From assembly GCF_002434505.1 (NCBI RefSeq), contig NZ_DJKE01000001.1, positions 124,001 to 188,000 of the forward strand: a DNA stretch of 64,000 nt, in the 5' to 3' direction. Source of the DNA: Brevundimonas sp. UBA6550 (GTDB lineage: Bacteria > Pseudomonadota > Alphaproteobacteria > Caulobacterales > Caulobacteraceae). A program made the position numbers and the translations under genes. The notes below the pieces were generated by a model. That model did no database searches. It was not told the origin of the DNA and worked only from the letters and a program-made list of their open reading frames with translations. Positions 9,833-25,402 of the stretch are shown here, in pieces; position 1 is the first letter of the stretch; each line of letters starts with the position of its first letter.

Positions 9833-9899
9833 AAAATCCCCGGAAAATTTCGCTGCAATCAACATTGCGTGATTGAAAATCGCGCGAATGTGATCGAGT

Positions 9900-11948
9900 A
9901 TGGCGGAACGTGTTGCAGTGCAGCACTCCGCGTCCTTCCTGCCTTCGGAAAGACGATCGGTCAACACGGGGGCGTCCAGAAGCGGCATGAACAAGCTGGC
10001 GATCCGGCCTGTCGAACAGGCTGAAATCGAGACTGTCGAGCGGGCTCAGGCGCCGTCCTGGTCCTGGCTGCCCGACGAGGCGCGCCTGGCCATGCCGGTG
10101 CAGTCCCTGGCCGCGCCCGACGCCGTGGCCGACCTGACGCCCGCGACCTCGCCGCGCACGGTGGCCCTGCGCCGCCTGGCGCTCTTGGCCGGCACCATCG
10201 TCCTGACGGGTCTGTCGGCCATCACCCCCTTCTATCTGTACGCCCGCAAGGGCTGGGACGGGACCGAGATCCTGGCCTTCAGCCTGTTCATGGTGCTGAT
10301 CACCGCCATCTCCTGCTGGTTCGTCAGCGGCCTGATGGGGCTGTTCGTCATGCTGCGCGGCAAGGATCAGCAGGACCTGGCCTTCTCGCCCCATCCGCCG
10401 ATGCCGCGCACGCGCACGGCCCTGCTGATGCCGCTGTATAACGAGGACGCCCGCGCCTCCTTCGCCCGACTAGCCATGATCGACCAGTCGCTGGCCCGCC
10501 TGGGCGCCGCCTCGGCCTTCGACATCTTCGTGCTCAGCGATTCGACCAAGGACGAGGCCGCCGCCGCCGAACGTTCGGTCTTCCAGGCCTTCCGCCTGAC
10601 CGCCAACTCCAAGGCCTACTACCGCCGCCGCACCGACAACGCCGAGCGCAAGGCCGGCAATCTGGCCGAATGGGTCCGTCGTTTCGGCGGCGCCTATGAG
10701 AACATGATCGTGCTGGACGCCGACAGCACCATGGCCGGCGAGACCCTGCTGCGCATGGTCGACGCCATGGAGCGCAATCCGGGCGTGGGCCTGATCCAGA
10801 CCGCCCCGGTCATCATCAAGGCCCGCACCATCTTCGCGCGCGTGTCCCAGTATTCGGTGCGCCTGTACGGCCGCGTCGCCGCCGCCGGTCTGGCCTACTG
10901 GACCGGCTCGGAATCCAGCTACTGGGGCCACAACGCCATCATCCGCACGCGCGCCTTCGCCGCCTGCTGCGGCCTGCCGCATCTGAAGGGCCGCAAGCCC
11001 TTCGGCGGGCACATCATGAGCCACGACGTGGTCGAGGCCGCCCTGATGCGCCGCGCCGGCTGGGCCGTCCACGTCACCGCCTCGCTGGACGGATCGTGGG
11101 AAGAGACCCCGCCCTCGATCACCGACTTCATCCGCCGCGACCACCGCTGGTTCCAGGGCAATCTGCAGCACCTGGGCCTGATCACCGCCAAGGGCCTGTC
11201 GCCGATGAGCCGGCTTCAGCTGCTGATGGGCTGCATGGCCTATCTGTCCTCGCCGCTGTGGCTGGCCTCGCTGATGACCGGCCTGTTCATCCAGATGTTC
11301 TATCCGGTCGACTGGTCCAGCTTCTTCTACATCCTGAACCCCCAGTTCACCCCCTTCATGCTGGCCTCCTTCCTGTCGGGCATTCTTTTGATCGGGCCCA
11401 AATTCATGGGCGCGGCCCTGGTGCTCAGCCGCCCGGCCGAGCTGCGCGCCTTCGGCGGGCGCCGCGCCATCGCCCGCGGCATGGCGGCCGAGATCGCCCT
11501 GTCCGCCATCCTGGCCCCCATCCTGATGGTCGCCAACACCAAGGCCTTCATCCAGATCGTCTCGGGTCACGACACCGGCTGGTCGACCCAGCAGCGCGAG
11601 GCCGACGGCCTGGCCTGGTCCGACGCCCTGCGCGCCATGCGCTGGCAGATGATCGCCGGCGTCGGCTTCATGGTTCCCCTGTGCGTGCGCCCCGACCTGG
11701 CCACCTGGTTCGCCCCGATCGTCCTGCCGCTGCTGCTGTCGGCCCCGATCACCGTCTGGACCTCGCGCGTCCGTTCGGGCGACGCCCTGGCCAGGAAGGG
11801 CTTCCTGGTCACCCCGGTTCAGGACGGCGTCAGCGTCTCGCCGGCCGTCCTGCACACGCCCCGTTCGCCGCTGCGCGCGGTCGCCGGCGGCGTCCTGGCC
11901 CCGGTCGCCGCCCCCGCCATGGTCCCGGCCCGCGCGCCGGAGCTGTAA
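9900..11948 (+). CDS. opgH: Glucans biosynthesis glucosyltransferase MdoH/OpgH
   Basis: OpgH is the inner-membrane GT2 glucosyltransferase that makes the beta-glucan backbone of osmoregulated periplasmic glucans and pushes it across the membrane. The 682-residue product has two helices near 95-155 and a cytoplasmic GT2 domain from about 170 (TALLMPLYNEDA, FVLSDSTKD, VLDADSTM). The RRDHRWFQGN signature (QxxRW-like) is at about 417, followed by further helices to about 620. ATG 9900 gives a leader rich in Ser; ATG 9987 (MNKLAIRPVEQ) is an alternative start. No opgG/opgD is in the window, which is notable because opgG normally precedes opgH. Confidence 0.93.
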   Translation: MAERVAVQHSASFLPSERRSVNTGASRSGMNKLAIRPVEQAEIETVERAQAPSWSWLPDEARLAMPVQSLAAPDAVADLTPATSPRTVALRRLALLAGTIVLTGLSAITPFYLYARKGWDGTEILAFSLFMVLITAISCWFVSGLMGLFVMLRGKDQQDLAFSPHPPMPRTRTALLMPLYNEDARASFARLAMIDQSLARLGAASAFDIFVLSDSTKDEAAAAERSVFQAFRLTANSKAYYRRRTDNAERKAGNLAEWVRRFGGAYENMIVLDADSTMAGETLLRMVDAMERNPGVGLIQTAPVIIKARTIFARVSQYSVRLYGRVAAAGLAYWTGSESSYWGHNAIIRTRAFAACCGLPHLKGRKPFGGHIMSHDVVEAALMRRAGWAVHVTASLDGSWEETPPSITDFIRRDHRWFQGNLQHLGLITAKGLSPMSRLQLLMGCMAYLSSPLWLASLMTGLFIQMFYPVDWSSFFYILNPQFTPFMLASFLSGILLIGPKFMGAALVLSRPAELRAFGGRRAIARGMAAEIALSAILAPILMVANTKAFIQIVSGHDTGWSTQQREADGLAWSDALRAMRWQMIAGVGFMVPLCVRPDLATWFAPIVLPLLLSAPITVWTSRVRSGDALARKGFLVTPVQDGVSVSPAVLHTPRSPLRAVAGGVLAPVAAPAMVPARAPEL

Positions 11949-12067
11949 AGCCGGCCAAACCGATGCACGGCGGCCACAGCGCCGCCACAACCGTTACGGT
12001 CAAGCTCGACGCGAAGGCGACTTCGCATCACCCTTGGCCCCTGACCTTTTCGGGGAGATGTGATTCC

Positions 12068-12385
12068 ATGGCCCAGTCCAACGGTTCCGACGCCAAGCCC
12101 GACCTGCGGCTCGTCGCGGCCGAGGCCGAGATCTACGATCTGATGAAGGCGCCCGAGACCACCGCCGACCGGGTCAAGCGCCTGCAGCTCGAAGCCCACG
12201 CCCTGGCCCTGGAAGAGATCGAGGCGCTGGAGAAGCTGCTGCTGGACGCCGCCGCCAAGGCCAAGGCCATCGCCGAGGGCGGCGACGCCTATCCGGTCGG
12301 CGCGCGCGAGATCGCCTCGCGCCTGGCCTCCGACCTGCCCAACCGCGCCGAGACCATCAAGACCATCATCCACCGCGTCAGCTGA
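12068..12385 (+). CDS. Conserved-looking helical small protein, function unknown
   Basis: A 105-residue cytoplasmic protein with no recognised domain. It is predicted almost wholly helical, with a coiled-coil-like central stretch (ALALEEIEALEKLLLDAAAKAKAIAEGG) and a basic C-terminus. ATG 12068 is preceded by GGGGAGATG, a good ribosome binding site about 9 bases upstream. It stands alone between opgH and an SDR gene on the same strand. Codon use is typical of the genome's core genes. Confidence 0.7.
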   Translation: MAQSNGSDAKPDLRLVAAEAEIYDLMKAPETTADRVKRLQLEAHALALEEIEALEKLLLDAAAKAKAIAEGGDAYPVGAREIASRLASDLPNRAETIKTIIHRVS

Positions 12386-12451
12386 TCGCGCGCAGGGAAC
12401 GCCCGTCCGCCTCGTCCGCTTCCTGAAGGTCCCGTCCTTCAGGAGCCTTCG

Positions 12452-13432
12452 ATGACCGACACCGCCCGCGCCGACGCCGTCGCCGACCACGAACGCGCCA
12501 TCCAGCGCGACATCGACGCCAAGGACAAGACGTCCGGCGACGACACATCCTCCGGCGCGGTCCAGGCCGGCGCCCGCCCCTATCCCGAACCGCCCTTCCC
12601 CAAACAGCATCAGACCAAGCCCGGCGACGAGGCCGCGCTGGATCCCGCGCCCCTGTACGACGCCCCCTTCTGGAAGGGCTCGGGCAAGCTTGACGGCTTC
12701 GCCGCCCTGATCACCGGGGCCGATTCCGGCATCGGTCGCTCCGTCGCCGTCCTGTTCGCGCGCGAGGGCTGCGACGTGGTCATCTGCCATCTGGACGAGG
12801 ACGCCGACGCCGAAACGACCAAGGCCGCCGTCGAGGCCGAAGGCCGTCGCGCCGTGGTGCTGAAGGGCGACGTCTCTGACCCCGCCTTCGCCGAAGCCGC
12901 CGTCAGGGCCACGCTGGACGCCTTCGGCCGCCTGGACGTCCTGGTCCCCAACGCCGCCTTCCAGGAACACGTCGGCGCCTTCGAGGACCTGACCTACGAG
13001 CATTTCGACCGCACGCTGAAGACCAACCTCTACGGCTATTTCAACATGACCAAGGCGGCGGTCCCGCACATGAAGACCGGCGGCGCCATCGTCATGACCG
13101 GCTCGGTCACCGGGCTTCAGGGCAACAAGGACTTGCTGGACTATTCCCTGACCAAGGGCGGCATTCACGCCTACGCCCGATCGTTGGGCACGCATCTGGC
13201 GCCGCGCGGCATCCGCGTGAACGTGGTCGCGCCGGGCCCGGTCTGGACCCCTCTGAACCCCGCCGACAAGGACGCCGAAGCCGTCTCCCAGTTCGGCGCC
13301 CAGACGGTGATGAAACGCCCGGCCCAGCCCGAGGAGATCGCCCCCGCCTACGTTTTCCTGGCCTCGCCCCAGATGTCCAGCTTCATCACCGGCGAGATCC
13401 TGCCGATCATCGGCGGCTATTCGGGCGGTTGA
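12452..13432 (+). CDS. SDR family oxidoreductase, YghA/YhdF-like
   Basis: A 326-residue short-chain dehydrogenase of the long-N-terminus type annotated in bacilli and enterobacteria as general-stress or glucose/ribitol dehydrogenase-like. An extended N-terminal part (1-78, with PYPEPPFPKQHQTKPGDEAALDPAP) precedes the Rossmann fold. The cofactor motif TGADSGIG is at about 89-96, NAA near 168, catalytic Ser in TGSVTG, and Tyr/Lys in YSLTKGG near 230. The conserved C-terminal end is FITGEILPIIGG. The substrate is unknown. AGGAG precedes ATG 12452. A long hairpin after the stop separates it from the convergent GNAT gene. Confidence 0.92.
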   Translation: MTDTARADAVADHERAIQRDIDAKDKTSGDDTSSGAVQAGARPYPEPPFPKQHQTKPGDEAALDPAPLYDAPFWKGSGKLDGFAALITGADSGIGRSVAVLFAREGCDVVICHLDEDADAETTKAAVEAEGRRAVVLKGDVSDPAFAEAAVRATLDAFGRLDVLVPNAAFQEHVGAFEDLTYEHFDRTLKTNLYGYFNMTKAAVPHMKTGGAIVMTGSVTGLQGNKDLLDYSLTKGGIHAYARSLGTHLAPRGIRVNVVAPGPVWTPLNPADKDAEAVSQFGAQTVMKRPAQPEEIAPAYVFLASPQMSSFITGEILPIIGGYSGG

Positions 13433-13447
13433 ACCCGCCCACGCCTT

Positions 13448-13478
13448 CGTCATCCTCGCCCTCGTGGCGAGGATGACG
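13448..13478. terminator. Bidirectional hairpin between convergent genes
   Basis: Thirteen-base perfect arms CGTCATCCTCGCC and GGCGAGGATGACG with a five-base loop sit between the stops of the SDR gene (plus) and the GNAT gene (minus). It probably ends transcription from both sides although no clear T-run is present. Confidence 0.55.
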
Positions 13479-13491
13479 GCTCAATGGATGG

Positions 13492-13788
13492 TCAGGCCAG
13501 CACGTCGTCGTAATCGGGATGGCGCTTGTGCCACGCGACCGCATAGCTGCACTGCGGAAACAGCTTCATCCCGCTCTCGCGCGCATGTTCGGCCAAGGCC
13601 TGCATGAACCGTCCCGCCGCGCCCGATCCGCGCAGCGCCTGATCGGCCTCGACGTGCAGGATCATCCGCGTGTCGCCGCGCACGGCGTAGTCGGCCCAGA
13701 CCTGGCCCGCGCCGCCGTCGCTCTCGAAGTCCTGTTCGAAGCGGTTCTCGTCCGCCTTGTCGATCAGTCGGCCCTGTCCGTCGGTCAT
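13492..13788 (-). CDS. YjdJ-like GNAT N-acetyltransferase
   Basis: A 98-residue minimal GNAT-fold protein of the YjdJ/GTL3 type (N-acetyltransferase with few secondary elements). The visible core is ENRFEQDFESDGGAGQVWADYAVRGD, then MILHVEADQALRGSGAAGRFMQALAEHARESG, where R-x-x-G-S/A-A is the acetyl-CoA loop. The C-terminal CSYAVAWHKRHPDYDDVL matches the family end. The substrate is unknown. ATG 13788 is followed by usual family residues. It is convergent with the upstream SDR gene and has the same strand as the small membrane proteins that follow. Confidence 0.85.
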   Translation of the reverse strand: MTDGQGRLIDKADENRFEQDFESDGGAGQVWADYAVRGDTRMILHVEADQALRGSGAAGRFMQALAEHARESGMKLFPQCSYAVAWHKRHPDYDDVLA

Positions 13789-13846
13789 GTGTCGCTCCTG
13801 TTTCCGAAGCCTGAACCGCCGACCGGCCCGCTGTGTTCCCGCCGCG

Positions 13847-14230
13847 TCAGATCGGGCGGTTCTGCAACAGGTTGATCAGCCCCAGCACGCTCTTGACCGT
13901 GAACCAGACGCTGAGCAGGAACCAGATCAGCAGGAACAGCAGCAGGAACGGTATGCCGATCAGCACCACCGAGGCCACGGCGCTGACCGCGATCCCGACC
14001 CAGGCGGCGATGGTCCACCAGAACACCGACCAGAACAGCGCGATCTGCGCGTCGATATGCTGGCGCGCCACGCCCGTCGCCGTGCCCCGCGCGACGTAGG
14101 ACACCGCCAGCCCGATCAGCACCAGCACATTGGCGCTGGGGATCGACAGGATGAACAGCGCCCAGGCGATCAGGGCGCCGACCTTGCCTTCCGGTTCGCG
14201 TCCGGCGATGAATTCGGGGGCGTCGGTCAT
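13847..14230 (-). CDS. DUF4870-like small membrane protein
   Basis: A 127-residue integral membrane protein with three to four helices (about 18-46, 68-94 and 95-115), resembling the DUF4870 family of unknown function. The N-terminus is cytoplasmic and short (MTDAPEFIAGREPEGKVG). It sits 13 bases downstream of the next membrane gene on the same strand, forming an apparent two-gene unit. Confidence 0.8.
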   Translation of the reverse strand: MTDAPEFIAGREPEGKVGALIAWALFILSIPSANVLVLIGLAVSYVARGTATGVARQHIDAQIALFWSVFWWTIAAWVGIAVSAVASVVLIGIPFLLLFLLIWFLLSVWFTVKSVLGLINLLQNRPI

Positions 14231-14243
14231 GATGATCCTTGGT

Positions 14244-14906
14244 TCAGAACAGCCAGCTGCGGGGCTTGGGAACGGCCTGGCCGCTCTTCAGTTTCAGCAC
14301 GCCATAGGCGCCGCGCGCCAGAATCCAGATCGCCACGGCGAACAGGACGATCACCCCGACATTGACCACCACCAGCACGGCGCCGACCACGGCCGCCGCG
14401 ATCGCCCCAAGCACGGTGCGCTTCTGATACAGGGCGTGACTGCTTTCCAGCGCATCGGCCGCCGTATCGCGCCGCATCACCGCCAGCAGCGCCACCAGGC
14501 ACGAGGCGCCCAGCGTCGGCACCGCCAGCAGGATCAGCATATAGACCGCATAAAGCCGCATCGGCGCGGCCGGACCGGGAACGCGCTCGGCCACCCGCTC
14601 GGACGCGCGCGGCGTCTCGGCGCGCATCCGGTCGCGCATGTCGGCATGGGGCGCGGCGTTCGGCTTCGGATGCGGGGCGAAGCGGGCCACGGGCTGCACC
14701 CCTTCGCTGCGGTCGAACGGTCCCGGCTCGCGCGCCAGGGGCGGATCGAACAGGTCCGGCTCGTCGTCGTGTTCCGGCGCCGCCGTCGGCTCTGGCGCAC
14801 GCGCCCGCCCGGCCAGCGAGGCGGGCGAGACGAAACCGACATGGGCGTCGTGATCGGTCCCGTCTTGCGCTGCGGCAGGGGTCTTGGGATCGCCGGGCTC
14901 GGCCAT
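14244..14906 (-). CDS. Hypothetical membrane protein with long disordered N-terminus
   Basis: A 220-residue protein with about 110 residues of acidic/Pro-rich, probably disordered cytoplasmic sequence. Two clusters of hydrophobic helices follow (about 115-140 and 160-205), resembling the DUF4870-type fold of its downstream neighbour. ATG 14906 is preferred over GTG 14924 because GAGAAG lies about 8 bases upstream. It appears co-transcribed with the shorter membrane gene. The function is unknown. Confidence 0.65.
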   Translation of the reverse strand: MAEPGDPKTPAAAQDGTDHDAHVGFVSPASLAGRARAPEPTAAPEHDDEPDLFDPPLAREPGPFDRSEGVQPVARFAPHPKPNAAPHADMRDRMRAETPRASERVAERVPGPAAPMRLYAVYMLILLAVPTLGASCLVALLAVMRRDTAADALESSHALYQKRTVLGAIAAAVVGAVLVVVNVGVIVLFAVAIWILARGAYGVLKLKSGQAVPKPRSWLF

Positions 14907-14999
14907 GAACAACGCTTCTCTCACGCCGGACGCCCGGCTGGACTCAAGGCGCCGACAATGGCGGTCGGGCGGGCCGGACGCAACCGGGCTTGACGCCCC

Positions 15000-15398
15000 T
15001 CAGCGCCCCAGCACGATCTCGCAGCCGGGGGCGATCACGGCGGCCAGGGCGCCGGGCTTTTCGATCCGCACCGTCGCGCGCCGCACCCGCCCATCCTCCA
15101 GACAGGCCCGCGCCAGCCGTTCGGCGAAGGTCTCCACCAGCCCCACATGCCCCGCCTCGGCGATGGCGCGCGCCGCATTGGCCACGGTCTCGTAGTCGAT
15201 GGTGTCGGCCAGCCGTTCGATGGGGCGCGGCTCCAGCTCCAGCGTCACATCGATCACCAGCCGCTGCAGCCGCCCGTGTTCGTGGTCATAGACCCCGATG
15301 CCCGCCTCGACCTCAAGCCCGCGCACGAAGACGCTCAACCGTTCGAAACGCAAAGGCTCGTCCGCCGGCGACGGCGAAACCTGCGACGACTGGACCAC
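15000..15398 (-). CDS. folB: Dihydroneopterin aldolase FolB
   Basis: FolB splits 7,8-dihydroneopterin into 6-hydroxymethyl-dihydropterin and glycolaldehyde in folate synthesis. The 132-residue product shows the family pattern: VFVRGLEVEAGIGVYDHEHGRLQRLVIDV with the catalytic Glu and Tyr, then DTIDYE near residue 75. The pterin-binding ETFAERLAR helix and VRIEKPGAL near 110, containing the catalytic Lys, follow. It lies 5 bases downstream of a FolM-like SDR gene on the same strand, which supports a pterin pathway pair. Confidence 0.93.
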   Translation of the reverse strand: MVQSSQVSPSPADEPLRFERLSVFVRGLEVEAGIGVYDHEHGRLQRLVIDVTLELEPRPIERLADTIDYETVANAARAIAEAGHVGLVETFAERLARACLEDGRVRRATVRIEKPGALAAVIAPGCEIVLGR

Positions 15399-15403
15399 GC
15401 GGC

Positions 15404-16186
15404 CTACTCCTGGATGTCGGGGGTGCGCCAGGCCAGATGCTGGCCCCCGTCGACGGCGATCATCTGGCCCGTGACCAGCCGGGCGTCAATCAGCCACAGC
15501 ACGGCCTCGGCCACCGCCTCCGGGCTGCCGGGCGTTTCCAGCAGGGTGGCGCGCGCCTCGGCGGCGAACTCCTCGGGCGTCTGGTGGATGGACGGCAGGG
15601 TCGGCCCCGGCCCCACCCCGTTGACGCGGATGCCCGGCGCCAGCGCCTGGGCCAGGGTCTGGGTCGCCCACCACAGGCCGTTGCGCGACAGGCTGTAGGA
15701 GAAGAAGCGCGGATCCGGCTTCAGCACCTTCTGGTCCAGCAGATTGACTATGGCCCCCTCGACCGCCTGCGCGGCGAACGCCTCGGCCAGCACGATGGGC
15801 GCGCGCAGATTGGTCTCGATATGCGTATCCCAGCTTTCGCGCGTCAGCCCCCCGATCCGGTCGTCCTGAAACACCGAGGCGTTGTTGACCAGCGCCGTCA
15901 CCGGCCCCAGCGCCTCCACCGCCGCCGGGATCAGCGCCCGCACCCGCGCCTCGTCCATCAGGTCCGCCTGCAACAGGCACGCACGCCGCCCCAGGCCCGC
16001 GATCTCGTCGGCCAGGCCCCGCGCCTCGTCGCCCGAAGCATGATGATGGATCGCCACGTCGAACCCGGCCCGCGCCAGCCTCAGACAGACAGCCCGCCCG
16101 ATCCGCCGCGCCCCGCCCGTGACCAGGGCGACGCCCCTTTCAGAGCGAGCAGCCCCCTCAGTCAACCCGACCGAACTCGAACACAT
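15404..16186 (-). CDS. FolM/pteridine-reductase-like SDR oxidoreductase
   Basis: A 260-residue SDR whose cofactor motif TGGARRIG follows the TGx3RxG form that marks pteridine reductases and FolM (dihydromonapterin reductase), rather than the common TGxxxGIG. NNAS is present near 96. The catalytic Tyr is in FFSYSLSRNGLWWAT, with Arg-Asn-Gly where Lys is usual, so the canonical YxxxK is altered here (Y-S-L-S-R). Its position next to folB fits tetrahydropterin or folate reduction. The start is uncertain: ATG 16186, or TTG 16165 overlapping the end of the upstream microprotein gene. Confidence 0.85.
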   Translation of the reverse strand: MCSSSVGLTEGAARSERGVALVTGGARRIGRAVCLRLARAGFDVAIHHHASGDEARGLADEIAGLGRRACLLQADLMDEARVRALIPAAVEALGPVTALVNNASVFQDDRIGGLTRESWDTHIETNLRAPIVLAEAFAAQAVEGAIVNLLDQKVLKPDPRFFSYSLSRNGLWWATQTLAQALAPGIRVNGVGPGPTLPSIHQTPEEFAAEARATLLETPGSPEAVAEAVLWLIDARLVTGQMIAVDGGQHLAWRTPDIQE

Positions 16187-16238
16187 TGAAGGCCGCGATG
16201 ACGGCGATGAAGCCAAAGATAATGCCGAGCGCCAGCAT
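16158..16238 (-). CDS. 26-residue single-span membrane microprotein
   Basis: A very short ORF: MLALGIIFGFIAVIAAFNVF forms one membrane helix, ending in EFGRVD. The ribosome binding site AGGAG lies 6 bases before ATG 16238, the best such site in the neighbourhood. The stop falls inside the 5' end of the FolM-like gene, whose possible TTG start overlaps it by eight bases. This suggests translational coupling. Function is unknown; a small membrane regulator or anchor is possible. Confidence 0.6.
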   Translation of the reverse strand: MLALGIIFGFIAVIAAFNVFEFGRVD

Positions 16239-16411
16239 GGAATGCTCCTGTTGTGGGTCTTGGCTTAGAGCGGGATGGGGCGGGGTTCAAGCGGGGACGG
16301 GGGTGAGGAAGTGCTCAGGCCCCGCATAATCCAATCTCGCTATCCAGGGAGGCGCGTAGCGCGACGCTGAGTATCATGCCAAGCTGATCATCAGAAGATT
16401 TCGGGGCGCCC

Positions 16412-18403
16412 ATGACCATTCTACAGCTGAAGGCGCAACAGGACGCGCTCCAGAAGGCAGCAATGACGCGCGACCCTGTCCGTGCGTTGGCGGAGTTTGT
16501 CTGGAACGCCTTGGACGCTGACGCCTCGGAAGTCTACGTCGAGTTCGACCGCAACAGCCTTGGCGGCATTGAGGGCATCGCGGTCCGCGACAACGGCAGC
16601 GGGATCACGTCTGAACGGGCCAACATTGATTTCGACAATTGGGGCGGCTCTTGGAAACGAACGCGCGTCCGCACCGACGGCAACCGCGCTTTCCACGGTA
16701 AGGAAGGTCAGGGACGCCTACGGTTCTTTTCGTTGGCCGAACGCGCGCTTTGGACCAGCATCTATGCGGATGGGGACACACTTAAAAAGCTGACCATCAA
16801 GATCGCGGCGGGTGCGCTGGGCCACGCGGAGGTCGAGCCAGCCGACCTTCTACCCCAAGACAACCAGACCGGAACCGTCGTCCAGCTGCGCCCTCTGAAA
16901 AGCCCTCTCAACATTCTTGGCGGCGAAGAAGCGCGTAATGATTTCAGCGCAATTTTCGCTCCCTACATCCTGCAATATCCGACCATCGCCATCTTCTATG
17001 ATGGAGCTCGCATCGACCCCAGTTCCACGATTTTGCAGGCTCAGGAGTTTCCTGCCCGCACAATCATCTGCCCGAACCGGACGGTCCGAGATCTTTCGAT
17101 CAAAGTCATCGAGTGGAAGCAAAGCGCCGGCGCGCGGAAAATTCATTTCGGAGGCGAGACCGGCGTTGTCCTTGGGGCGCTGCCGGCCAACGTCACTGCT
17201 CCAGGGTACGAGTTTTCGGCCTACGCCTATGCACCCTTCTTCCAAGAGATCGCTGACGCCAATCTTCTGGAGTTTGACGGGCTGACTGATCCAGACTTCG
17301 GTCATGTCGTTGAGCACATCCGCGAAGAGCTTTCAGATTATTTTCGTGGACGGCAAGCCGAGAAGTCCGGCGAGCTGATCCAACAGCTCAAGGACGATGG
17401 CGTCTACCCCTACGAGGGCGACCCAAAGGATGAGGTCGAAAAGCGTGAGCGGCAGGTCCTCGACATCGCTATTCATGCCGTGACTTCGTATTCACGCGAC
17501 TTCAAAAAGGCCGAGAACGGCCTCAAGAAGATGACGCTAGGACTCTTGCGAGAGGCACTTCGCCATAACCCCGAAGCAATCCACAATATCCTCCACCATG
17601 TTTTCAATTTACCCAAGAATCGGCAAGACGAGTTCTCCAATCTTCTTCAAAAGACTAATCTTGGAAATATTATTTCTGCTTCTACGCTAATCGCAGACAG
17701 GATCGTGGCCCTCCAAGTGCTTAAGGGCATAGTTTTCGATCCGACGCACCGCAATACCGTTAAAGAGCGGGGGGAGTTGGATGCCCTCGTCCAAGCTAAC
17801 ACCTGGATGTTCGGCGAAAACTTCCACATCACCTTGGCTGAGACCGGGCTTACGCGCATCATGGATCGTGTTTCCCAAGAGATCGGCACCAAGCGCGGCA
17901 AAAAGCGGGTCACAAAGGGCAACGGCAAAGTCGGTCGCGTCGACTCATTCCTGGGCCGAATCGTGCCCCATCCCAATCAGGCCCACAGAGAATTTTTACT
18001 GATCGAACTTAAGCGACCATCACTTACCATCGGCCGCAAAGAACTCGACCAGCTTGAAGACTATGTAAACGCGATTAAGGCTCAGCCGGAATACAATGAC
18101 ACCTCGAACACATGGACCTTTTACCTAGTCACAGGTGAGTATGACGACACGGTTAAGGGACGCATCACTCAGTCGGGACGTCCAGTAGGGTTGTTCATTG
18201 AACAGGGAGGCGTCACAGTTTGGGTGAAGACTTGGTCGCAGATCGTTCGCGACTGCGAAGCTCGCCTACACTTCATCGCCGACAAGCTCCAAGTTGAAGT
18301 GTCCGGCGAGGAAATCGAAAGCCGCATCGCGCAACTAAAGTCTTCGATTCTTAAAACCGCGAGCAAGGGTCAAGCCGACCCAGAGGGAATGCAAACATCT
18401 TAG
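16412..18403 (+). CDS. GHKL ATPase fused to Shedu-like PD-(D/E)xK nuclease domain (putative defence protein)
   Basis: The 663-residue protein starts with a GHKL ATPase (MutL/Hsp90/MORC class). The N-box is EFVWNALDAD with Glu28 and Asn32, the G1 box is DNGSGI (60-65) and the G2-like loop is GKEGQGRLRF (97-106). A transducer-like middle runs to about 330, then a helical linker to about 450. From about 455 it resembles the Shedu/DUF4263 nuclease group: ELDALVQANTWMFGENF, then Asp511 in RVDSFLGR and Glu532-Leu-Lys534 in LIELKRP, then Gln547 in DQLEDYV. This gives a PD-(D/E)xK set. No signal peptide or membrane segment is seen. The gene is clearly AT-richer than its neighbours and stands alone between core genes, signs of transfer. 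Anti-phage or restriction function is inference. Confidence 0.8.
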   Translation: MTILQLKAQQDALQKAAMTRDPVRALAEFVWNALDADASEVYVEFDRNSLGGIEGIAVRDNGSGITSERANIDFDNWGGSWKRTRVRTDGNRAFHGKEGQGRLRFFSLAERALWTSIYADGDTLKKLTIKIAAGALGHAEVEPADLLPQDNQTGTVVQLRPLKSPLNILGGEEARNDFSAIFAPYILQYPTIAIFYDGARIDPSSTILQAQEFPARTIICPNRTVRDLSIKVIEWKQSAGARKIHFGGETGVVLGALPANVTAPGYEFSAYAYAPFFQEIADANLLEFDGLTDPDFGHVVEHIREELSDYFRGRQAEKSGELIQQLKDDGVYPYEGDPKDEVEKRERQVLDIAIHAVTSYSRDFKKAENGLKKMTLGLLREALRHNPEAIHNILHHVFNLPKNRQDEFSNLLQKTNLGNIISASTLIADRIVALQVLKGIVFDPTHRNTVKERGELDALVQANTWMFGENFHITLAETGLTRIMDRVSQEIGTKRGKKRVTKGNGKVGRVDSFLGRIVPHPNQAHREFLLIELKRPSLTIGRKELDQLEDYVNAIKAQPEYNDTSNTWTFYLVTGEYDDTVKGRITQSGRPVGLFIEQGGVTVWVKTWSQIVRDCEARLHFIADKLQVEVSGEEIESRIAQLKSSILKTASKGQADPEGMQTS

Positions 18404-18504
18404 TCAACATCTACTATGCTGCTAGTTCTCCAAAATTCTTCTTGGCCCTGCACCAGAATGATCGAACATCCCGCCAAGCACTGTAGTCGACGGCAGACAC
18501 ACCC

Positions 18505-18978
18505 ATGACCTGGCGCATCCACGTCGAACCCTTCACCCGGCCGCTGTTCTTCGCCTGGTCGCGGCTGACGCGGGGCAAGACGTTGGGGGTGCGGGCGGTG
18601 GCGGTGGATGGGGACGGGCGGGTGCTGTTGGTGCGGCACACCTATCTGGCGGGCTGGTGGCTGCCGGGCGGCGGGGTGGATCGGGGCGAGACGACGCAGG
18701 CCGCCGTGGCGCGCGAACTGCGTGAGGAGACCGGGCTGATCGCGCGCGGGGCGCCGCGTCTGATCTCCCTGCATTCCAACGACCGCTTCTTTCCCGGCGA
18801 CCATGTGGCGGTCTTTCGCATCGACGTCTTCGAGGCGGGTCCCGACGCGCCGCGCGACGGCGAGATCGCCGAGGTCGGCTGGTTCGATCCCGCCGCCCTG
18901 CCCGCCGACGTCAATCGCGGTTGTCGCGCCCGTCTGGCGGAGATTTTCGACGGCGCCCCGCTCGATCCCGACTGGTGA
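18505..18978 (+). CDS. NUDIX hydrolase
   Basis: A 157-residue NUDIX protein with a complete box at about 52-74 ([20 protein letters not shown], then TG), which binds Mg2+ and cleaves nucleoside-diphosphate-linked compounds. The preceding WWLPGGGV is typical. The N-terminal segment ([26 protein letters not shown]) is like those of NUDIX enzymes linked to lipid or sugar-nucleotide substrates, but the substrate cannot be named. It is monocistronic, with an intergenic palindromic repeat directly downstream. Confidence 0.92.
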
Positions 18979-18989
18979 GACCCGTTGCC

Positions 18990-19146
18990 GTCTCCTCCCT
19001 ATCGCCTAGCGATGGGGAGGTGGCGCGGCGCGCCTTCGCGCCGTGACGGAGGGGTTCTGCGACGCATCACAATCGCCTGTGGAGCTTCAAGAGCCCCTCC
19101 ACCACGCTTCGCGCGGTCCCCCTCCCCACAGGTGTGGAGGAGACGT
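18990..19146. repeat. Intergenic palindromic repeat pair (REP-like)
   Basis: CGTCTCCTCCCTATCGC at the left and CCACAGGTGTGGAGGAGACG at the right form outer complementary ends. Inside are hairpins such as GGCGCG...CGCGCC and two opposed GGAGGGG/CCCCTCC blocks. The layout matches the repeats at 32213, 34961 and 57148 in design, with diverged sequence. It fills the gap between the NUDIX gene and the HTH gene. Confidence 0.55.
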
Positions 19147-19188
19147 TGTGCGTCCGCATTTGACGCAAGCGCGTGCCAGCGTGCGGCC

Positions 19189-19797
19189 ATGACCCAGGCC
19201 GTCCCCGTCTATCGCGTCCGCTCGCAACAGGTCTGGGACCTGGCGCGCGACGACTATCTGGCGGGCGAGCCGGCGCGCATCGTCTGCCGCCGCTATGACC
19301 TGGGCCTGTCGGCCTTTCGCATCCGCGCCCGCAAGGCGGGCTGGCGGCGCCAGGATCAGGACGACCCCGATCTCTACGATCCCGCCCTGGCGCTGGAGGC
19401 GGTCGAGGATGTCGCCTTTTCCGACATGGCGGCCTCGGCGCGCCGTCGTCTGCAGCTGGCCCTGATGGACGGCGAGGCGACCGAGGCCCAGCGCTGGCTG
19501 AAGATTTTCGAAACCCTGTCCGTCCTGGCGGCCGAGGCCGGCGATGTGCACCCATTGCACCCTGATTTCGCGCTCCCGCCGTCCGATCGGGACGATGCGG
19601 CCGTATCCCTCGTCGCCGCCTCCGACGTCGGGACCGAACCGGACGAAGCGCACCCATTGCACCCTGTTTCTTCGTCGGCCGACGCCGACGCCCCCCAGGC
19701 GCCCCTCAACAGGGCCGAGCGCCGCCGCCTGCGTCGCGCCCATCGCCGAACGCCGCCCTCCGCAAGCCATGAAAGCCGTGCTAGCCAGGGGCCATGA
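19189..19797 (+). CDS. HTH-domain protein with duplicated HPLHP motif, function unknown
   Basis: A 202-residue protein. Residues about 8-52 look like a helix-turn-helix of the terminase-small-subunit or transposase type (VWDLARDDYLAGEPARIVCRRYDLGLSAFRIRARKAGW). A helical segment (70-110) containing RRRLQLALMDGEATEAQRWLKIFE follows, then a low-complexity acidic tail and a basic end (RAERRRLRRAHRR). The tail holds the motif HPLHP twice, encoded by an identical 17-base sequence at 19548 and 19650. The stop overlaps the next gene's ATG. A phage-derived or regulatory origin is possible, but no function can be assigned. Confidence 0.6.
   Translation: MTQAVPVYRVRSQQVWDLARDDYLAGEPARIVCRRYDLGLSAFRIRARKAGWRRQDQDDPDLYDPALALEAVEDVAFSDMAASARRRLQLALMDGEATEAQRWLKIFETLSVLAAEAGDVHPLHPDFALPPSDRDDAAVSLVAASDVGTEPDEAHPLHPVSSSADADAPQAPLNRAERRRLRRAHRRTPPSASHESRASQGP
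19548..19666 (+). repeat. Two identical 17-base direct repeats inside a coding region
   Basis: GCACCCATTGCACCCTG occurs at 19548-19564 and again at 19650-19666, a period of 102 bases, in the same frame. Each copy encodes HPLHP and itself contains the near-repeat GCACCCA/GCACCCT. The surrounding sequence is not duplicated. Confidence 0.8.
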
Positions 19798-20240
19798 ACC
19801 CGTCGCTGCTCGCCATCCTCGTCGTCGTCCTGGCCGGGGGCGCAACCGCGCTGCAGGCGCCGACCAACGCCCGGCTGGCCGGCGCCGTGGCCTCGCCGGT
19901 CAACGCCGCCTTCATCTCGTTCGCGGTGGGGACCACGGTGCTGGGGGTGCTGGCCGCCATCCTGCACACCCGGCCCGACATGACGGCGGTGCGCGCTCTG
20001 CCCTGGTACGCCTGGCTGGGCGGGTTTTACGGCGCCTGTTTCGTGGTCGCCGCCGCCTGGGGCGTGCCGCGCCTGGGCGTGGCCATGACCATCACCCTGA
20101 TGGTCGGGGGCCAGCTGATGCTCAGCCTGGCGCTGGATCATTTCGGCGCCCTGGGCGTGCCGCGCCAGCCGCTGAACCTGGGCCGGATCGCCGGGGTGGG
20201 CCTGGTTCTGGCCGGCGTCCTTCTGGTCCGGCGCTCCTGA
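19794..20240 (+). CDS. DMT-family transporter, YdcZ/DUF606 type
   Basis: A 148-residue membrane protein with about five hydrophobic helices, of the DUF606/YdcZ half-size drug/metabolite transporter type. The N-terminal AILVVVLAGGATALQAPTNARL and the TITLMVGGQLMLSLALDHFG stretch are typical. Such half-size proteins usually act as dimers. ATG 19794 overlaps the preceding stop by four bases, so the HTH protein gene and this one look coupled. The substrate is unknown. Confidence 0.85.
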   Translation: MNPSLLAILVVVLAGGATALQAPTNARLAGAVASPVNAAFISFAVGTTVLGVLAAILHTRPDMTAVRALPWYAWLGGFYGACFVVAAAWGVPRLGVAMTITLMVGGQLMLSLALDHFGALGVPRQPLNLGRIAGVGLVLAGVLLVRRS

Positions 20241-20256
20241 CCCTATATCCCGCCCG

Positions 20257-22125
20257 ATGACCGCGGAGCCCCCCGATTCGAAACTGACCGCCGCCGCCCT
20301 GATCGCCGACGAGGCGCGTCGCGCGCCGGACAAGCCGGGCGTCTATCGCATGTATGGCGAGGACGGGTCGTGCCTGTATGTCGGCAAGGCCCGCAGCCTG
20401 AAGAAGCGCATCGTCCAGTATGCGCAGGGGCGCTTCCACACCCAGCGCATCGGCCTGATGGTGGCCCAGACCCGGTCGATGGAGCTGGTGGTCACGGCGT
20501 CCGAGACCGAGGCCCTGCTGCTGGAATCCAACTTCATCAAGAAGCTGAAGCCGCGCTACAACGTGGTTCTGCGCGACGACAAGTCCTTCGCCGAACTGAT
20601 GATCCGCAGCGACCATCGCGCCCCTCAGGTGAAGAAGCATCGCGGCGCCCACACCACGCCCGGCCATTACTTCGGCCCCTTCGCCTCGACCTGGGCGGTC
20701 AACCGCACGCTGAACACCCTGCAGAAGGCGTTTCTGCTGCGGTCCTGTTCCGACAGCGTCTACGAGACCCGCACCCGCCCCTGCATGCTGCATCAGATCA
20801 AGCGCTGCTCGGCGCCCTGCACCGGCCTGATCTCGCTGGAGGACTATGGCGAACTGGTCGACGAGGCCGAGGCCTTTCTGCGCGGCAAGTCGCGCGCCGT
20901 GATCGGCCGCCTGTCGGGCGAGATGCAGGCCGCGTCGGACGCTATGGACTTCGAACAAGCCGCCCGCGTGCGCGACCGCATCCGGGCGCTGTCGGCCATC
21001 ACCATGGAGAACTCCGTCAGCGCCGACAGCGTGGCCGAAGGCGACGTCTTCGCCCTGCATTCCGATGGCGGCCAGGCCTGCGTCCAGGTCTTCTTCTACC
21101 GCGCGGGCCAGAACTGGGGCGGGCGCGCCTATTTCCCGCGCGTGGACAAGTCCGACACGGACCCGGAGATCCTGGCCGCCTTCCTGGGTCAGTTCTACGA
21201 GGACAAGCCCATCCCGCGCCTGATCCTGTCCAACGTCCGCCCGCACGAGCTGGAGTTGCTGGAGGAGGCCTTCTCGATGAAGGCGGACCGCAAGGTCGAG
21301 ATCGCGCGGCCTCAGCGCGGCGAGAAGCTGGCCCTGATCGACCACGCCCTGACCAACGCCAAGGAGGCCCTGGGCCGCCGCCTGGCCGAAAGTTCGGCGC
21401 AGGGCAAAATCCTGGACGAGGTGTGCGAAGCCTTCGGACTGGAGAGCCGACCCGAACGGATCGAGATATACGACAACGCCCACATTCAGGGGACCAATGC
21501 CGTGGGCGGCATGGTCGTCGCCGGCCCGGAAGGCTTCCAGAAGTCGCAGTATCGTAAGTTCAACATCCGAGGCGAAGACCTGACGCCCGGCGACGACTAC
21601 GGCATGATGCGCGAGGTCATGCGCCGCCGCTTCGCCCGCCTGGTCAAGGACGAGGAGGAAGGCGAGGACGTCGTCCGCCCCGACCTGCTGCTGATCGACG
21701 GCGGCGCGGGACAGTTGGCCGAGGTGCTGGCCGTCATGGCCGATCTAGGCGGTCTGGATGATATCGCCGTGGTCGGCGTGGCCAAGGGGCCGGATCGGGA
21801 TGCGGGGATGGAGAAGTTCTTCATGCCGGGCAAGGCGCCCTTCATGCTGCCGCTGAAGTCGCCGGCCCTCTACTACCTTCAGCGTCTCCGCGACGAAGCC
21901 CACCGCTTCGCCAACGGCGCCCACGCCAAGCGCCGCTCGATGGACATCAAGAAAAACCCGCTGGACGAGATCGAAGGCGTCGGCCCCGGCCGCAAGAAGG
22001 CCCTGCTCCACGCCTTCGGCTCCGCCAAGGGCGTCAGCCGCGCCTCGGTAGTCGATCTGGTCAAGGTCGACGGCGTCAGCCAGCCCCTGGCCGAACGCAT
22101 CCACGCCTTCTTCAGGAAGGCGTAA
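20257..22125 (+). CDS. uvrC: Excinuclease ABC subunit C
   Basis: UvrC makes the two incisions flanking a UvrB-marked lesion in nucleotide excision repair. The 622-residue product has the GIY-YIG nuclease (about 27-105, PGVYRMYGEDGSCLYVGKA). A Cys-rich part (RSCSD, CMLHQIKRCSAPCTG) and the UVR motif (about 215-250, SDAMDFEQAARVRDRIRAL) follow. The RNase H-like endonuclease domain with DNAHIQG and LLIDGGAGQL lies at about 405-550, and a C-terminal helix-hairpin-helix pair at about 570-620 (IEGVGPGRKKALLHAFGS). It is full length. No LexA box is seen upstream. pgsA, often its neighbour, is found two kilobases further on. Confidence 0.97.
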   Translation: MTAEPPDSKLTAAALIADEARRAPDKPGVYRMYGEDGSCLYVGKARSLKKRIVQYAQGRFHTQRIGLMVAQTRSMELVVTASETEALLLESNFIKKLKPRYNVVLRDDKSFAELMIRSDHRAPQVKKHRGAHTTPGHYFGPFASTWAVNRTLNTLQKAFLLRSCSDSVYETRTRPCMLHQIKRCSAPCTGLISLEDYGELVDEAEAFLRGKSRAVIGRLSGEMQAASDAMDFEQAARVRDRIRALSAITMENSVSADSVAEGDVFALHSDGGQACVQVFFYRAGQNWGGRAYFPRVDKSDTDPEILAAFLGQFYEDKPIPRLILSNVRPHELELLEEAFSMKADRKVEIARPQRGEKLALIDHALTNAKEALGRRLAESSAQGKILDEVCEAFGLESRPERIEIYDNAHIQGTNAVGGMVVAGPEGFQKSQYRKFNIRGEDLTPGDDYGMMREVMRRRFARLVKDEEEGEDVVRPDLLLIDGGAGQLAEVLAVMADLGGLDDIAVVGVAKGPDRDAGMEKFFMPGKAPFMLPLKSPALYYLQRLRDEAHRFANGAHAKRRSMDIKKNPLDEIEGVGPGRKKALLHAFGSAKGVSRASVVDLVKVDGVSQPLAERIHAFFRKA

Positions 22126-22131
22126 GGCGTG

Positions 22132-22518
22132 TCACCACTCCAGCAGCGTCAGACCGGGAATGTCGCGAAAATCGTCGCCGTTGCGCGTGACCAGCGTCGC
22201 GCCCGCCGTGATCGCCTGCGCCGCGATCATCCGATCCAGCACCTTGCGCCGCGAGAAGCCGCAGGCCTCGACGATGCCGCGATAGGCCTGGGCCTCGGCC
22301 GAGCCGAAGGGCAGCACAGGCACGGCGTCCAACAGGGCGTCCAGCCTCGCTCGCCGATCGCCTGTGCCGGCCTCCATCCGGCCGAGATCGGCCTCCAACT
22401 CGACCCGGCTGACGATGGACAGCAGCAGCGGCGGGCTCAAGGCGTCCACGCGCTCATCGATCACCGCATCGCCATCCCTCAGGTGAATGGCGACGTTCGC
22501 ATCCAGCATATAGGCCAC
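22132..22518 (-). CDS. vapC: PIN-domain toxin VapC
   Basis: A 128-residue PIN-domain ribonuclease, the toxin of a VapBC module. Acidic active-site residues are visible in MLDANVAIHL (Asp6), SRVELEADLG (Glu41), and the C-terminal DRMIAAQAI and TRNGDDFRDIPGL. VapC enzymes usually cut tRNA or rRNA. The start is GTG 22518 (or ATG 22509), only three bases after the antitoxin stop. The gene is convergent with uvrC and ends 6 bases from the uvrC stop. Confidence 0.9.
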   Translation of the reverse strand: MAYMLDANVAIHLRDGDAVIDERVDALSPPLLLSIVSRVELEADLGRMEAGTGDRRARLDALLDAVPVLPFGSAEAQAYRGIVEACGFSRRKVLDRMIAAQAITAGATLVTRNGDDFRDIPGLTLLEW

Positions 22519-22521
22519 GTT

Positions 22522-22758
22522 TCAGAGGCCCGGACGCTCGGGAATCTCGACCTCGTGGCGAACGCCGATGCTGTCGGGCTTGGGCAGGCTGCGCAGCTTG
22601 GCCAGCATCTCCTTCACGGACTTCTGCTTGGGCGAGATGGTCACGACGTCGCCCTTGCGCTCGATCTCGACCTCGACGCCCGGCCCGAACGAGATTTCCT
22701 TGGGCAGACGCACCGCGTCGCTGTTTCCGCTTCGAAAGGTTCGACTGGTGACGGGCAT
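22522..22758 (-). CDS. vapB: AbrB/MazE-type antitoxin VapB
   Basis: A 78-residue antitoxin with a swapped-hairpin AbrB fold (MPVTSRTFRSGNSDAVRLPKEI, strand VEVEIERKGDVVTISP) and a C-terminal toxin-binding tail rich in Lys/Pro. ATG 22758 is preferred because AAGGAGG lies just upstream and the conserved N-terminus begins there. It is the first gene of the module and lies next to an inverted repeat overlapping its probable -10 box. Confidence 0.88.
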   Translation of the reverse strand: MPVTSRTFRSGNSDAVRLPKEISFGPGVEVEIERKGDVVTISPKQKSVKEMLAKLRSLPKPDSIGVRHEVEIPERPGL

Positions 22759-22771
22759 GACGGCCTCCTTC

Positions 22772-22787
22772 GTATAGACAAGTATAC
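22772..22787 (-). promoter_or_regulatory. vapBC promoter/operator inverted repeat
   Basis: GTATA at 22772-22776 and TATAC at 22783-22787 are perfect arms around six bases, inside the AT-rich leader of vapB. On the minus strand this region reads GTATACTTGTCTATAC, so the -10-like TATACT overlaps the repeat. Autoregulation by VapB-VapC is the usual arrangement. Confidence 0.5.
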
Positions 22788-22826
22788 ACCATTTATCGCC
22801 GCCCCCCAAAACGCTACAGGCGCAGC

Positions 22827-23450
22827 ATGAGCGACATCGAAGACGAACTGACCGCCGGCTATCGCCGCTTCCGCGCCGACCACTGGCCGACCGCCCGCGC
22901 CGAGTACGAGAGTCTGGCGACCAAGGGCCAGAAGCCGCACACCCTGATCGTCGCCTGTTCCGACAGCCGCGCCGATCCGGCCCTGATCTTCGACGCCAAG
23001 CCGGGCGAACTGTTCGTCGTCCGCAACGTCGCCAATCTGGTCCCGCCCTATGAGCCGGACGGCAAGCTGCACGGCGTGTCGGCGGCGTTGGAGTTCGGGG
23101 TCAAGGTGCTGGGCGTCAAGCGGATCGTGGTCATGGGCCACGCCCACTGCGGCGGGGTCAACGCCATGATCCACGGCGCGCCGGACATCGTCGCCGATTT
23201 CGTCGGCCCCTGGATCGCGCAAGGGACGCCCGTCGTCCAGCACGTGGCCGAGACCGTCGCCCCGGACCAGCTGGAACGCGCGGCCGAGGAGGCCATCGTG
23301 CGCCTGTCGATCCGAAACCTGCGCACCTTCCCCTGGATCGCCGAACGCGAGGCCAAGGGCGAGCTTCAGCTCAGCGGCCTTCACTTCGGCATCGCCGAGG
23401 GCGCCCTGACCGCCCTGACCGACAAGCCCCGGTTCGAACCGTTGGCTTGA
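22827..23450 (+). CDS. Beta-class carbonic anhydrase
   Basis: A 207-residue beta-carbonic anhydrase that interconverts CO2 and bicarbonate in the cytoplasm. Zinc ligands are Cys44 (in ACSDSR, with the Asp46-Arg48 dyad), His105 and Cys108 (MGHAHCGG). The family stretches FVVRNVANLVPPYEPDGKLHG, SAALEFGVKVLGV and a C-terminal LHFGIAEGALTAL are all present. It is divergent from vapB with a short shared leader. It lies between two toxin-antitoxin modules in the interval separating uvrC from pgsA. Confidence 0.95.
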   Translation: MSDIEDELTAGYRRFRADHWPTARAEYESLATKGQKPHTLIVACSDSRADPALIFDAKPGELFVVRNVANLVPPYEPDGKLHGVSAALEFGVKVLGVKRIVVMGHAHCGGVNAMIHGAPDIVADFVGPWIAQGTPVVQHVAETVAPDQLERAAEEAIVRLSIRNLRTFPWIAEREAKGELQLSGLHFGIAEGALTALTDKPRFEPLA

Positions 23451-23458
23451 CTTGCAAC

Positions 23459-23480
23459 ATAGTAGTGAAATCACTACTAT
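23459..23480. promoter_or_regulatory. Perfect 22-bp palindromic operator of the Phd-PIN module
   Basis: Arms ATAGTAGTGA and TCACTACTAT are exact reverse complements separated by AA. The sequence starts 8 bases after the carbonic anhydrase stop and ends 7 bases before the antitoxin ATG, so the bound antitoxin would cover the ribosome binding region. The sequence is AT-rich against its surroundings. Confidence 0.75.
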
Positions 23481-23487
23481 TGCATTC

Positions 23488-23733
23488 ATGGAACGCACGA
23501 TCACCGCAACCGAAGCCAATCGTGACTTTTCGCGCGTGTTTCGAGAAGTCGCGGCGGGCGAATCCTATGTCGTCACAGCGCGCGGCCAGCCGCTAGTCAG
23601 AATGACACCCGCGACGGATCGGGCCGACAGCCACGGAGATCGCGTGGCAGGGCGTCATGCTCTTGTCGATGCGCTAGCCGCCCTGCCCGCCGTCGGCGCA
23701 GGCCGCATCACGCGCGAAGACGGCTACGCTTGA
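23488..23733 (+). CDS. Phd/YefM-family antitoxin
   Basis: An 81-residue antitoxin with the Phd/YefM DNA-binding half (MERTITATEANRDFSRVFREVAAGESYVVTARGQPLVRM). Its C-terminal tail (RHALVDALAALPAVGAGRITREDGYA) should bind the PIN toxin. ATG 23488 follows the perfect palindrome by seven bases. The stop overlaps the toxin's TTG start by three bases. Confidence 0.88.
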   Translation: MERTITATEANRDFSRVFREVAAGESYVVTARGQPLVRMTPATDRADSHGDRVAGRHALVDALAALPAVGAGRITREDGYA

Positions 23734-25326: not shown

Positions 25327-25402
25327 GCCCCCTGTCTAGCGGGGCGATCTTTGGATGCCGTGAAACGACGTGGCTGACGAAAGCTTAAAACCCCAGGACC
25401 GA

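Follow-up and report, generated by a model that had tools for sequence, protein, structure and literature searches.

Introduction

DNA and protein machines throughout the living world are controlled by clamps built on GHKL ATPases, among them MutL, MORC, gyrase and Hsp90. The eukaryotic MORC proteins are described as having prokaryotic kin that include the paraMORC3 kind, which combines a GHKL domain, an S5 domain and a C-terminal restriction-endonuclease-fold domain with an E-D-ExK signature, is partly standalone and is found chiefly in proteobacteria and Bacteroidetes (Iyer, Abhiman and Aravind 2008, PMC2292703). VcSduA of Vibrio cholerae, a type I-D Shedu protein that joins a GHKL domain to DUF4263, was reported to protect against phages and to work as a single gene in Escherichia coli; the substitutions E27A and K557A each abolished phage defence, and its authors proposed control of the nuclease by the GHKL domain (Nature Microbiology 2025, PMC12137116). 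The type I Shedu protein EcSduA is described as binding DNA ends with an N-terminal clamp (review PMC12904381). Here we analyse a gene for a GHKL ATPase-nuclease of the paraMORC3 type in Brevundimonas sp. UBA6550, contained in a stretch of 64,000 nucleotides (contig NZ_DJKE01000001.1, positions 124,001 to 188,000) that we refer to as the window. In our view this gene is likely to have arrived horizontally and to encode a one-protein defence system of the paraMORC3 type, with a nuclease related to the Shedu and HsdR N-terminal domains.

Results

The reading frame contains no internal stops and has one match in its own genome, and a relative with 96% identity carries the name 'ATP-binding protein [Brevundimonas sp.]'. 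Pfam placed HATPase_c_3 at residues 24-130, and the complete GHKL motif set announced by the original prediction, which had been made from the DNA alone, is in place: the N-box is E28/N32, G1 is D60-x-G62-x-G64 and G2 is G96-K-x-G99-x-G101. As in paraMORC3, an S5/transducer domain follows the GHKL domain. In a fold search with modelled residues 6-320, the best match was MORC3/MORC2, closely followed by the Hsp90-type TRAP1. A sequence search of solved structures, with a library that includes the Shedu chains 8ti8, 8ti9 and 8ps4, gave only GHKL proteins among the best 60 of 81 matches, with MutL and MORC nearest. PADLOC v2 matched the ATPase part only (REase_II models), and NCBIfam matched the ATPase part plus two weak, chance-level hits. 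The predicted structure shows eight helices at residues 294-442, with low confidence (53-63) at 391-420; an earlier model built from a narrow alignment had a predicted local distance difference test score (pLDDT) of 59.5.

An alignment (A4) of 114 relatives, drawn from genomes, IMG/VR and metagenomes and 25-96% identical, was built to assess conservation in both halves. Protein searches, which scored about 8,000 candidates and listed the best 120 each, had given 451 (with the window protein), 455 and 763 relatives at E<=0.001. The N-terminal residues E28, N32, D60, G62, G64, S80 and G101 and the C-terminal residues E452, W465, D511, E532, K534 and Q547 were identical in all 114 relatives, and G99 was glycine in 113. 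Thus, 13 of the 14 residues counted are invariant, which rules out a chance motif match, and the conservation in both halves argues that the ATPase and the nuclease are both in use in the family.

The C-terminal half carries the ELDALVQANTWMFGENF stretch at residues 455-471 with D511 and E532-L-K534 downstream, as had been noted from the DNA. Together with the invariant E452 just upstream of this pattern, the nuclease signature reads E452-D511-E532xK534-Q547, and the C-terminal globular domain with E-D-ExK that characterizes paraMORC3 is therefore present. We compared this domain with known nuclease families using hhalign, the E-values of which refer to single comparisons. Against 14 Shedu (PF14082) sequences, residues 440-640 gave 91.8% (E 7.5e-7) and residues 370-640 gave 94.0% (E 1.5e-7, 165 columns), the alignment being collinear through a pre-nuclease helix, E452..NTWxFG, VD, ELKRP, Q..Y and a C-terminal element. 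Seven HSDR_N_2 sequences came close, at 89.6% (E 1.9e-6, 79 columns). From that set L177 and the family member L181 had been dropped and L176 added; a value of 97.8% was discarded because the set then contained L181, a full-length relative with 33% identity. Mrr (16 sequences) gave 27% and Cas4 (only 5 sequences) 0.5%; the family's own N-terminus, used as control, gave 0.1%.

In Pfam searches, HSDR_N_2 is the nuclease family that matches the C-terminus in 26 of 28 members of set A1 (best E 0.0042), the window protein matching at residues 523-571 with E = 0.0042, below the cutoff. Among ten distant members, two exceed the 25-bit cutoff of HSDR_N_2 (27.7 and 25.5 bits) and two weakly match PADLOC SduA (5.8e-4 and 2.3e-4). 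These HSDR_N_2 matches, together with the unmatched PF14082 model, would be expected of a defence protein with an HsdR/RecB-type nuclease that came to this architecture by a route separate from that of Shedu. We regard such an origin as rather unlikely, given the slightly better and longer collinear alignment with Shedu and the SduA matches of the two distant members; it concerns ancestry only and is compatible with the defence role proposed here. Judged by its signature, the C-terminal domain is of the PD-(D/E)xK type, nearest to Shedu and HSDR_N_2. Because the Pfam Shedu model is not matched, we do not file the protein as Shedu and label it paraMORC3-type, probably working like VcSduA. Of the Shedu-like nuclease originally proposed, the nuclease-type domain is retained, whereas formal Shedu membership is not established, the lead over HSDR_N_2 being modest.

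The gene was predicted to lie in a transferred-looking locus, AT-richer than its flanks, between the folM-folB genes and a NUDIX gene. The neighbours are as described (Table 1). The GC content of the gene is 0.553 and its GC at third codon positions (GC3) 0.649, against 0.688 (sd 0.023) and 0.881 (sd 0.044) in 38 other open reading frames (ORFs) of the window, a contrast that is somewhat inflated because the comparison ORFs were chosen by a filter demanding high GC3, from which the gene was exempt. An unfiltered GC profile of positions 8000-28000 in 500-bp blocks gave 0.51-0.59 within the gene and at least 0.628 in all blocks outside it except the one at 25500 (0.572). Promoter and terminator scans around the gene returned chance-level matches only.

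We then surveyed the junction in the genus. In the closest same-genus genomes the gene order is SDR-folB-folM-[slot]-NUDIX-YdcZ-uvrC as far as the stretches reach, SDR denoting a short-chain dehydrogenase/reductase. The window protein has no full-length match in any of 60 other genomes from the genus. Stretches from 49 of these genomes were obtained, 48 of them measurable (in G009, folM lies outside the stretch), and the gap was taken as the distance from the folM match to the NUDIX match. It measured 151-216 bp in 22 of the 48, 319 bp in one and 543-3,583 bp in 25, and in the window 2,288 bp separate the borders of the two genes. In 17 of the short-gap genomes the identity of the folM match is 60% or more; in the other five it is only 43-44%, and the left gene may therefore be a paralogue there. 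The absence of full-length matches and the short gaps at the site rule out a conserved housekeeping gene.

Border mapping used one blastn segment per locus and the 12 extreme rows on each side. Homology on the left never extends beyond 16307, the 12 furthest-reaching relatives stopping at 16291-16307; on the right it never begins before 18454, the 12 earliest relatives resuming at 18454-18502. From these sharp borders, the cassette consists of the gene flanked by about 110 bp on the left and 50-100 bp on the right. No repeats were found at both ends of the inserted segment.

FastTree, run on 128 sequences, placed the window protein together with metagenomic relatives of 91-96% identity. P0007 and the Xanthobacter protein P0008 come next (support 1.0), and the Asticcacaulis protein P0027, from what is probably the order of the window genome itself, lies outside. 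Tree position and base composition support horizontal arrival and, with the short gaps, bear out the transferred-looking locus of the original prediction; the data support insertion of a horizontally acquired gene at an exchangeable slot. Copies about 50% identical to the window protein are present in Brevundimonas huaxiensis, Brevundimonas albigilva and a Brevundimonas metagenome-assembled genome (MAG). In the albigilva (L029) and MAG (L033) copies, the frame meets a stop after 32 codons; these copies may be inactive, misread or provided with a start further down.

The slot of close relatives also holds AT-rich cargo (GC 0.53-0.59). In G019 this is a Septu-like pair (PADLOC PDC-M01A 7.2e-199 and PtuA 4.1e-182; PDC-M01B 1.5e-100), the second protein of which has an HNH match below the Pfam cutoff, and in G002 it is a BamHI-like gene (1.8e-28). 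The slots of G048 and G056 contain a two-gene pair (L124 and L125:10646-13194, respectively), in which a protein of 466/424 aa accompanies a 382-aa protein that weakly resembles Mrr_cat (0.0014 in G056, below cutoff). The first protein, scanned in its G056 copy, had no PADLOC or Pfam match at 0.01, and the cassette is a candidate for a new defence pair. G008 carries a 582-aa protein with HATPase_c_3 (5.6e-26), a sub-cutoff match to SduA_C (1.4e-4) and a PADLOC SduA match (1.4e-5). This GHKL protein (L127:2904-4649, minus strand) adjoins a PhyH-like gene, and its relatives of 56-58% identity reside on rhizobial and Azospirillum plasmids. The slot ORFs of G020, G028 and G022 had no useful match in the scans. 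The gap ORFs of G003, G023, G024, G026, G033, G037, G038, G050, G053, G054 and G060 were left out of the cargo scan. Some of the longer gaps hold no cargo, because the gap ORF of G001 and G055 (~135 aa) resembles FolB by eye.

Beyond the genus, two peptide patterns retrieved at least 33 loci from a collection of 84,980 species, a lower bound. Genome G312 belongs to a different class of this phylum, probably Gammaproteobacteria; in that class a full-length match was found in 8 of 369 genomes (320-874 bits), the other listed matches covering the ATPase only. Three members of this class, L214, L215 and L216, form a divergent subfamily of full-length GHKL-nucleases scoring ~320-327 bits against the A4 profile; L214, the one scanned, has GHKL Pfam matches only. 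In G312 itself (contig C32:184918-188168, L111/L213), a canonical SduA gene lies ~0.7 kb from a full-length family member and convergent with it.

The relatives are also found on satellites and phages. A DNA search of 5,426 E. coli genomes with the Salmonella copy, which would miss more divergent copies, found the gene in 11, all 97.8-97.9% identical; the satellite relative of E. coli has the accession WP_021536577.1. In all five carriers examined (H61, H64, H65, H70 and H71), the gene is part of a P4-like satellite and is flanked by psu and int, and in four of them ssrA adjoins int. The Salmonella copy and the IMG/VR locus L075 are likewise placed between psu and int matches. Rousset et al. 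(2022, PMC9122126) described the P4 psu-int site as a likely reservoir of antiviral systems; the terms GHKL, HATPase, MutL, histidine kinase and Shedu are absent from the main text of their study. Relatives occur in two Pasteurella phage records, the gene standing among structural genes. This distribution bears on whether the protein might be a MutL-kind DNA repair or recombination nuclease with no part in defence. TIGR00585 does match the N-terminus (E 1.6e-7), MutL and MORC are the nearest solved sequences and some sources label relatives 'DNA mismatch repair protein'; however, the TIGR00585 score is 30.6 against a cutoff of 180, the gene is patchy in its genus, relatives are carried by satellites, phages and plasmids, and the slot also houses defence-like genes. 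A repair role is thus very unlikely.

Plasmid records with relatives number 50, of which 35 cover at least 80% of the query. It could be argued that plasmids or other mobile DNA, rather than phages, are mainly restricted, MutL/MORC-like clamps having been proposed to act on DNA superstructure (Iyer 2008, PMC2292703). The many plasmids that themselves carry relatives speak against this, and the presence of relatives on satellites and phages as well is in keeping with competition between viruses; we give plasmid restriction a small chance. Seven plasmid surroundings were opened. A Psychrobacter relative adjoins Drt2, Dcm and LlaMI, a Phaeobacter relative overlaps a type ISP restriction-modification (R-M) gene by 4 bp, and another lies beside a helicase and an abortive-infection gene. 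The Sinorhizobium meliloti plasmid has only toxin-antitoxin genes beside the relative, and on those of Streptomyces, Salmonella, Mesorhizobium and Alisedimentitalea its immediate neighbours include no defence gene. A gene for an 'RHE_PE00001 family protein' lies one or two genes from the relative on two plasmids.

The Psychrobacter and Phaeobacter contexts would suit a protein that does not act alone but serves as effector or remodeller alongside a methylase or R-M enzyme whose gene lies elsewhere; paraMORC families have been linked to R-M, and standalone ones may act with unlinked R-M (Iyer 2008, PMC2292703). We consider such a partnership improbable. No R-M gene was found beside the window gene, where ten flanking ORFs were scanned with Pfam, and none is annotated in either Pasteurella phage. 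The five E. coli satellites examined have none except for a protein annotated as HsdR-N-like, which three of them carry at their far end, and VcSduA is effective as a single gene (PMC12137116).

Neighbours were scanned for 102 of the 155 ORFs of 27 genomic loci, mostly the nearest two per side and with no control set. At PADLOC E<=1e-10, and within the best 25 of 120 families, AbiJ was matched by three ORFs, IetA by two, and BrxL, PglZ, DarG, DarT, a group III-A/retron-like reverse transcriptase and mad3 by one each. Pfam gave DUF1612 in five, Abi_C in four, HTH_13 in four and phage integrase in three, and DUF1612 and HTH_13 are the commonest families. Plain housekeeping genes (ThiC, argininosuccinate synthase, DNA polymerase A) are neighbours as well.

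In the window, two toxin-antitoxin-like pairs lie 4-6 kb downstream of the gene: 22132-22809 (minus strand), PIN (5e-15) with a MazE-type antitoxin (9.8e-6), and 23452-24185 (plus strand), a Phd/YefM-like protein (1.3e-6, just under cutoff) with PIN (5.7e-10). They flank ORF 22827-23450, which is carbonic anhydrase-like by eye. ORF 19012-19797 (plus strand, 261 aa) is of normal composition and has no Pfam match at E<=0.001. Outside the window, ~63 kb from the gene, the same genome carries a canonical Shedu gene (L066, contig C5:76673-77149; PADLOC SduA 8.1e-163, PF14082 88 bits).

Table 1. Coordinates of the gene, its domains and the borders of the slot in the window
Feature	Position	Strand	Basis
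GHKL ATPase - PD-(D/E)xK-type nuclease gene (paraMORC3-type), 663 aa	16412..18403	+	ATG start, homologues
GHKL ATP-binding domain, residues ~20-165	16469..16906	+	HATPase_c_3 1.6e-13, invariant residues, model matches
MORC/S5-like transducer region, residues ~166-290, limits approximate	16907..17281	+	
Helical linker, residues ~291-440	17282..17731	+	Eight helices in model
C-terminal PD-(D/E)xK-type domain, residues ~441-630	17732..18301	+	E452, D511, E532-x-K534, Q547; hhalign
folB, left anchor gene	15000..15398	-	Pfam FolB 6.1e-24
folM-like SDR, left border of slot	15404..16216	-	adh_short 3.9e-32; syntenic in relatives
NUDIX gene, right border of slot	18505..18978	+	NUDIX 3.3e-21; conserved in relatives
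Inserted segment	16292..18502	.	Ends of relatives' flanking homology, short folM-NUDIX gaps

Discussion

In MutL and MORC, DNA is held in the transducer cavity and ATP closes an N-terminal gate over it. By analogy with these proteins, we propose that the window protein dimerises and that ATP binding would close its N-terminal gate around phage or plasmid DNA, or around DNA ends. Closure or hydrolysis would then reposition the two C-terminal nuclease domains so that the trapped DNA is cut, the nuclease being inhibited while a proper substrate is absent. The GHKL gate would in this way take over the DNA-binding role of the N-terminal clamp of EcSduA. The window protein probably works like VcSduA, and it would by itself protect against phages. 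The single-protein defence system of the original prediction is well supported by context, through the hotspot and the satellites, phages and plasmids that carry relatives, and by the VcSduA analogy.

Several observations weigh against a defence role or against the closeness of the analogy. Our reading draws on sequence and genomic context. A predicted TM-score (pTM) of 0.55 for the whole-protein model makes the domain placement uncertain, and among the 50 matches listed each time in the fold searches all were to the N-terminal GHKL part. PF14082 is matched neither by the window protein and 28 A1 members (E<=10) nor by 10 distant members (E<=1). The distance between the catalytic E and K is 530 residues in VcSduA, compared with 500-518 in 114 members (the published spacing, not the sequences, being compared), and orthology to VcSduA is therefore doubtful; other GHKL-nuclease types have spacings of 474, 518 and 524, and no protein with a spacing of 530 was found among those measured in the class of G312. 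No known defence gene was found among the ten Pfam-scanned ORFs flanking the gene. The folM-NUDIX slot is variable and rich in defence-like genes, 'rich' being said without comparison slots, and it also holds an outer-membrane barrel protein (G039), a sulfotransferase (G011), a beta-CASP hydrolase with a Usp protein (G013) and an FMN reductase (G034); since such plain genes occur and many ORFs lay outside the scan, we call it defence-rich but not exclusively so. The neighbour counts of the 27 genomic loci stand without a control set, the 39 IMG/VR loci with relatives are putatively viral around the gene, and the Salmonella protein, at 31% identity to the window protein, is a distant relation. 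The 11 E. coli copies amount to about one observation because they are nearly identical to the Salmonella query, and this, together with the missing enrichment control for the slot, slightly lowers our confidence.

A broader reading is possible, and we put it forward tentatively. The family may be a large GHKL-gated nuclease lineage, distinct from VcSduA and exchanged as a one-gene cassette; its self/non-self check would be ATP-driven closure of the clamp on phage DNA that is linear or replicating. Its routes would be the integrase-less folM-NUDIX cassette, whose slot is shared with a second, only distantly related GHKL protein with a Shedu-like end, and the P4 psu-int hotspot in E. coli. The Pfam and PADLOC v2 Shedu models miss the window protein. 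The compact one-gene GHKL-nuclease, the E. coli satellite copies and the defined empty sites would make GHKL licensing of DNA cutting directly testable, and the folM-NUDIX slot offers a small, easily scanned site for finding further defence genes in the genus.

Among described systems, paraMORC3, compared by its description only, shares the domain order and E-D-ExK with the window protein, and we found no difference. VcSduA resembles it as one gene with an N-terminal GHKL domain, a C-terminal PD-(D/E)xK domain and a location on a mobile island (PMC12137116), but carries DUF4263, whereas the window protein misses Pfam SduA_C. Canonical SduA (PF14082; PDB 8ti8 and 8ps4) shares the motif order E..W..G, D, ExK, Q and the C-terminal element by hhalign, and differs in its N-terminal domain, in the ELKRP-to-Q stretch, which is shorter in the window protein, and in its Pfam match. 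The ~580-aa GHKL proteins with an SduA_C-like C-terminus (L127 in G008, L119 and L120) combine GHKL with a Shedu-like C-terminus as the window protein does, and L127 occupies the same chromosomal slot; however, L127 is only ~30% and 24% identical to it in two separate patches, with an E-to-K spacing of 474, and the three score 21.6-27.2 bits against the PF14082 cutoff of 27, which only L119 passes. GHKL is also shared with MutL and with the BbrUII/HgiDII restriction enzymes (NF050001; 49.3 against a cutoff of 550), and membership of either family was rejected on these scores. In the literature searched, we found no further tests of Shedu+GHKL or paraMORC proteins in phage defence. With paraMORC3 and VcSduA published, the architecture, the function of the type and a proposal for its mechanism are already in print; the architecture is known, and defence by this type has been described once before. 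What is new, as far as the literature searched goes, is the folM-NUDIX one-gene slot, the presence of two GHKL-nuclease types in it and the occurrence of the family in the P4 psu-int hotspot.

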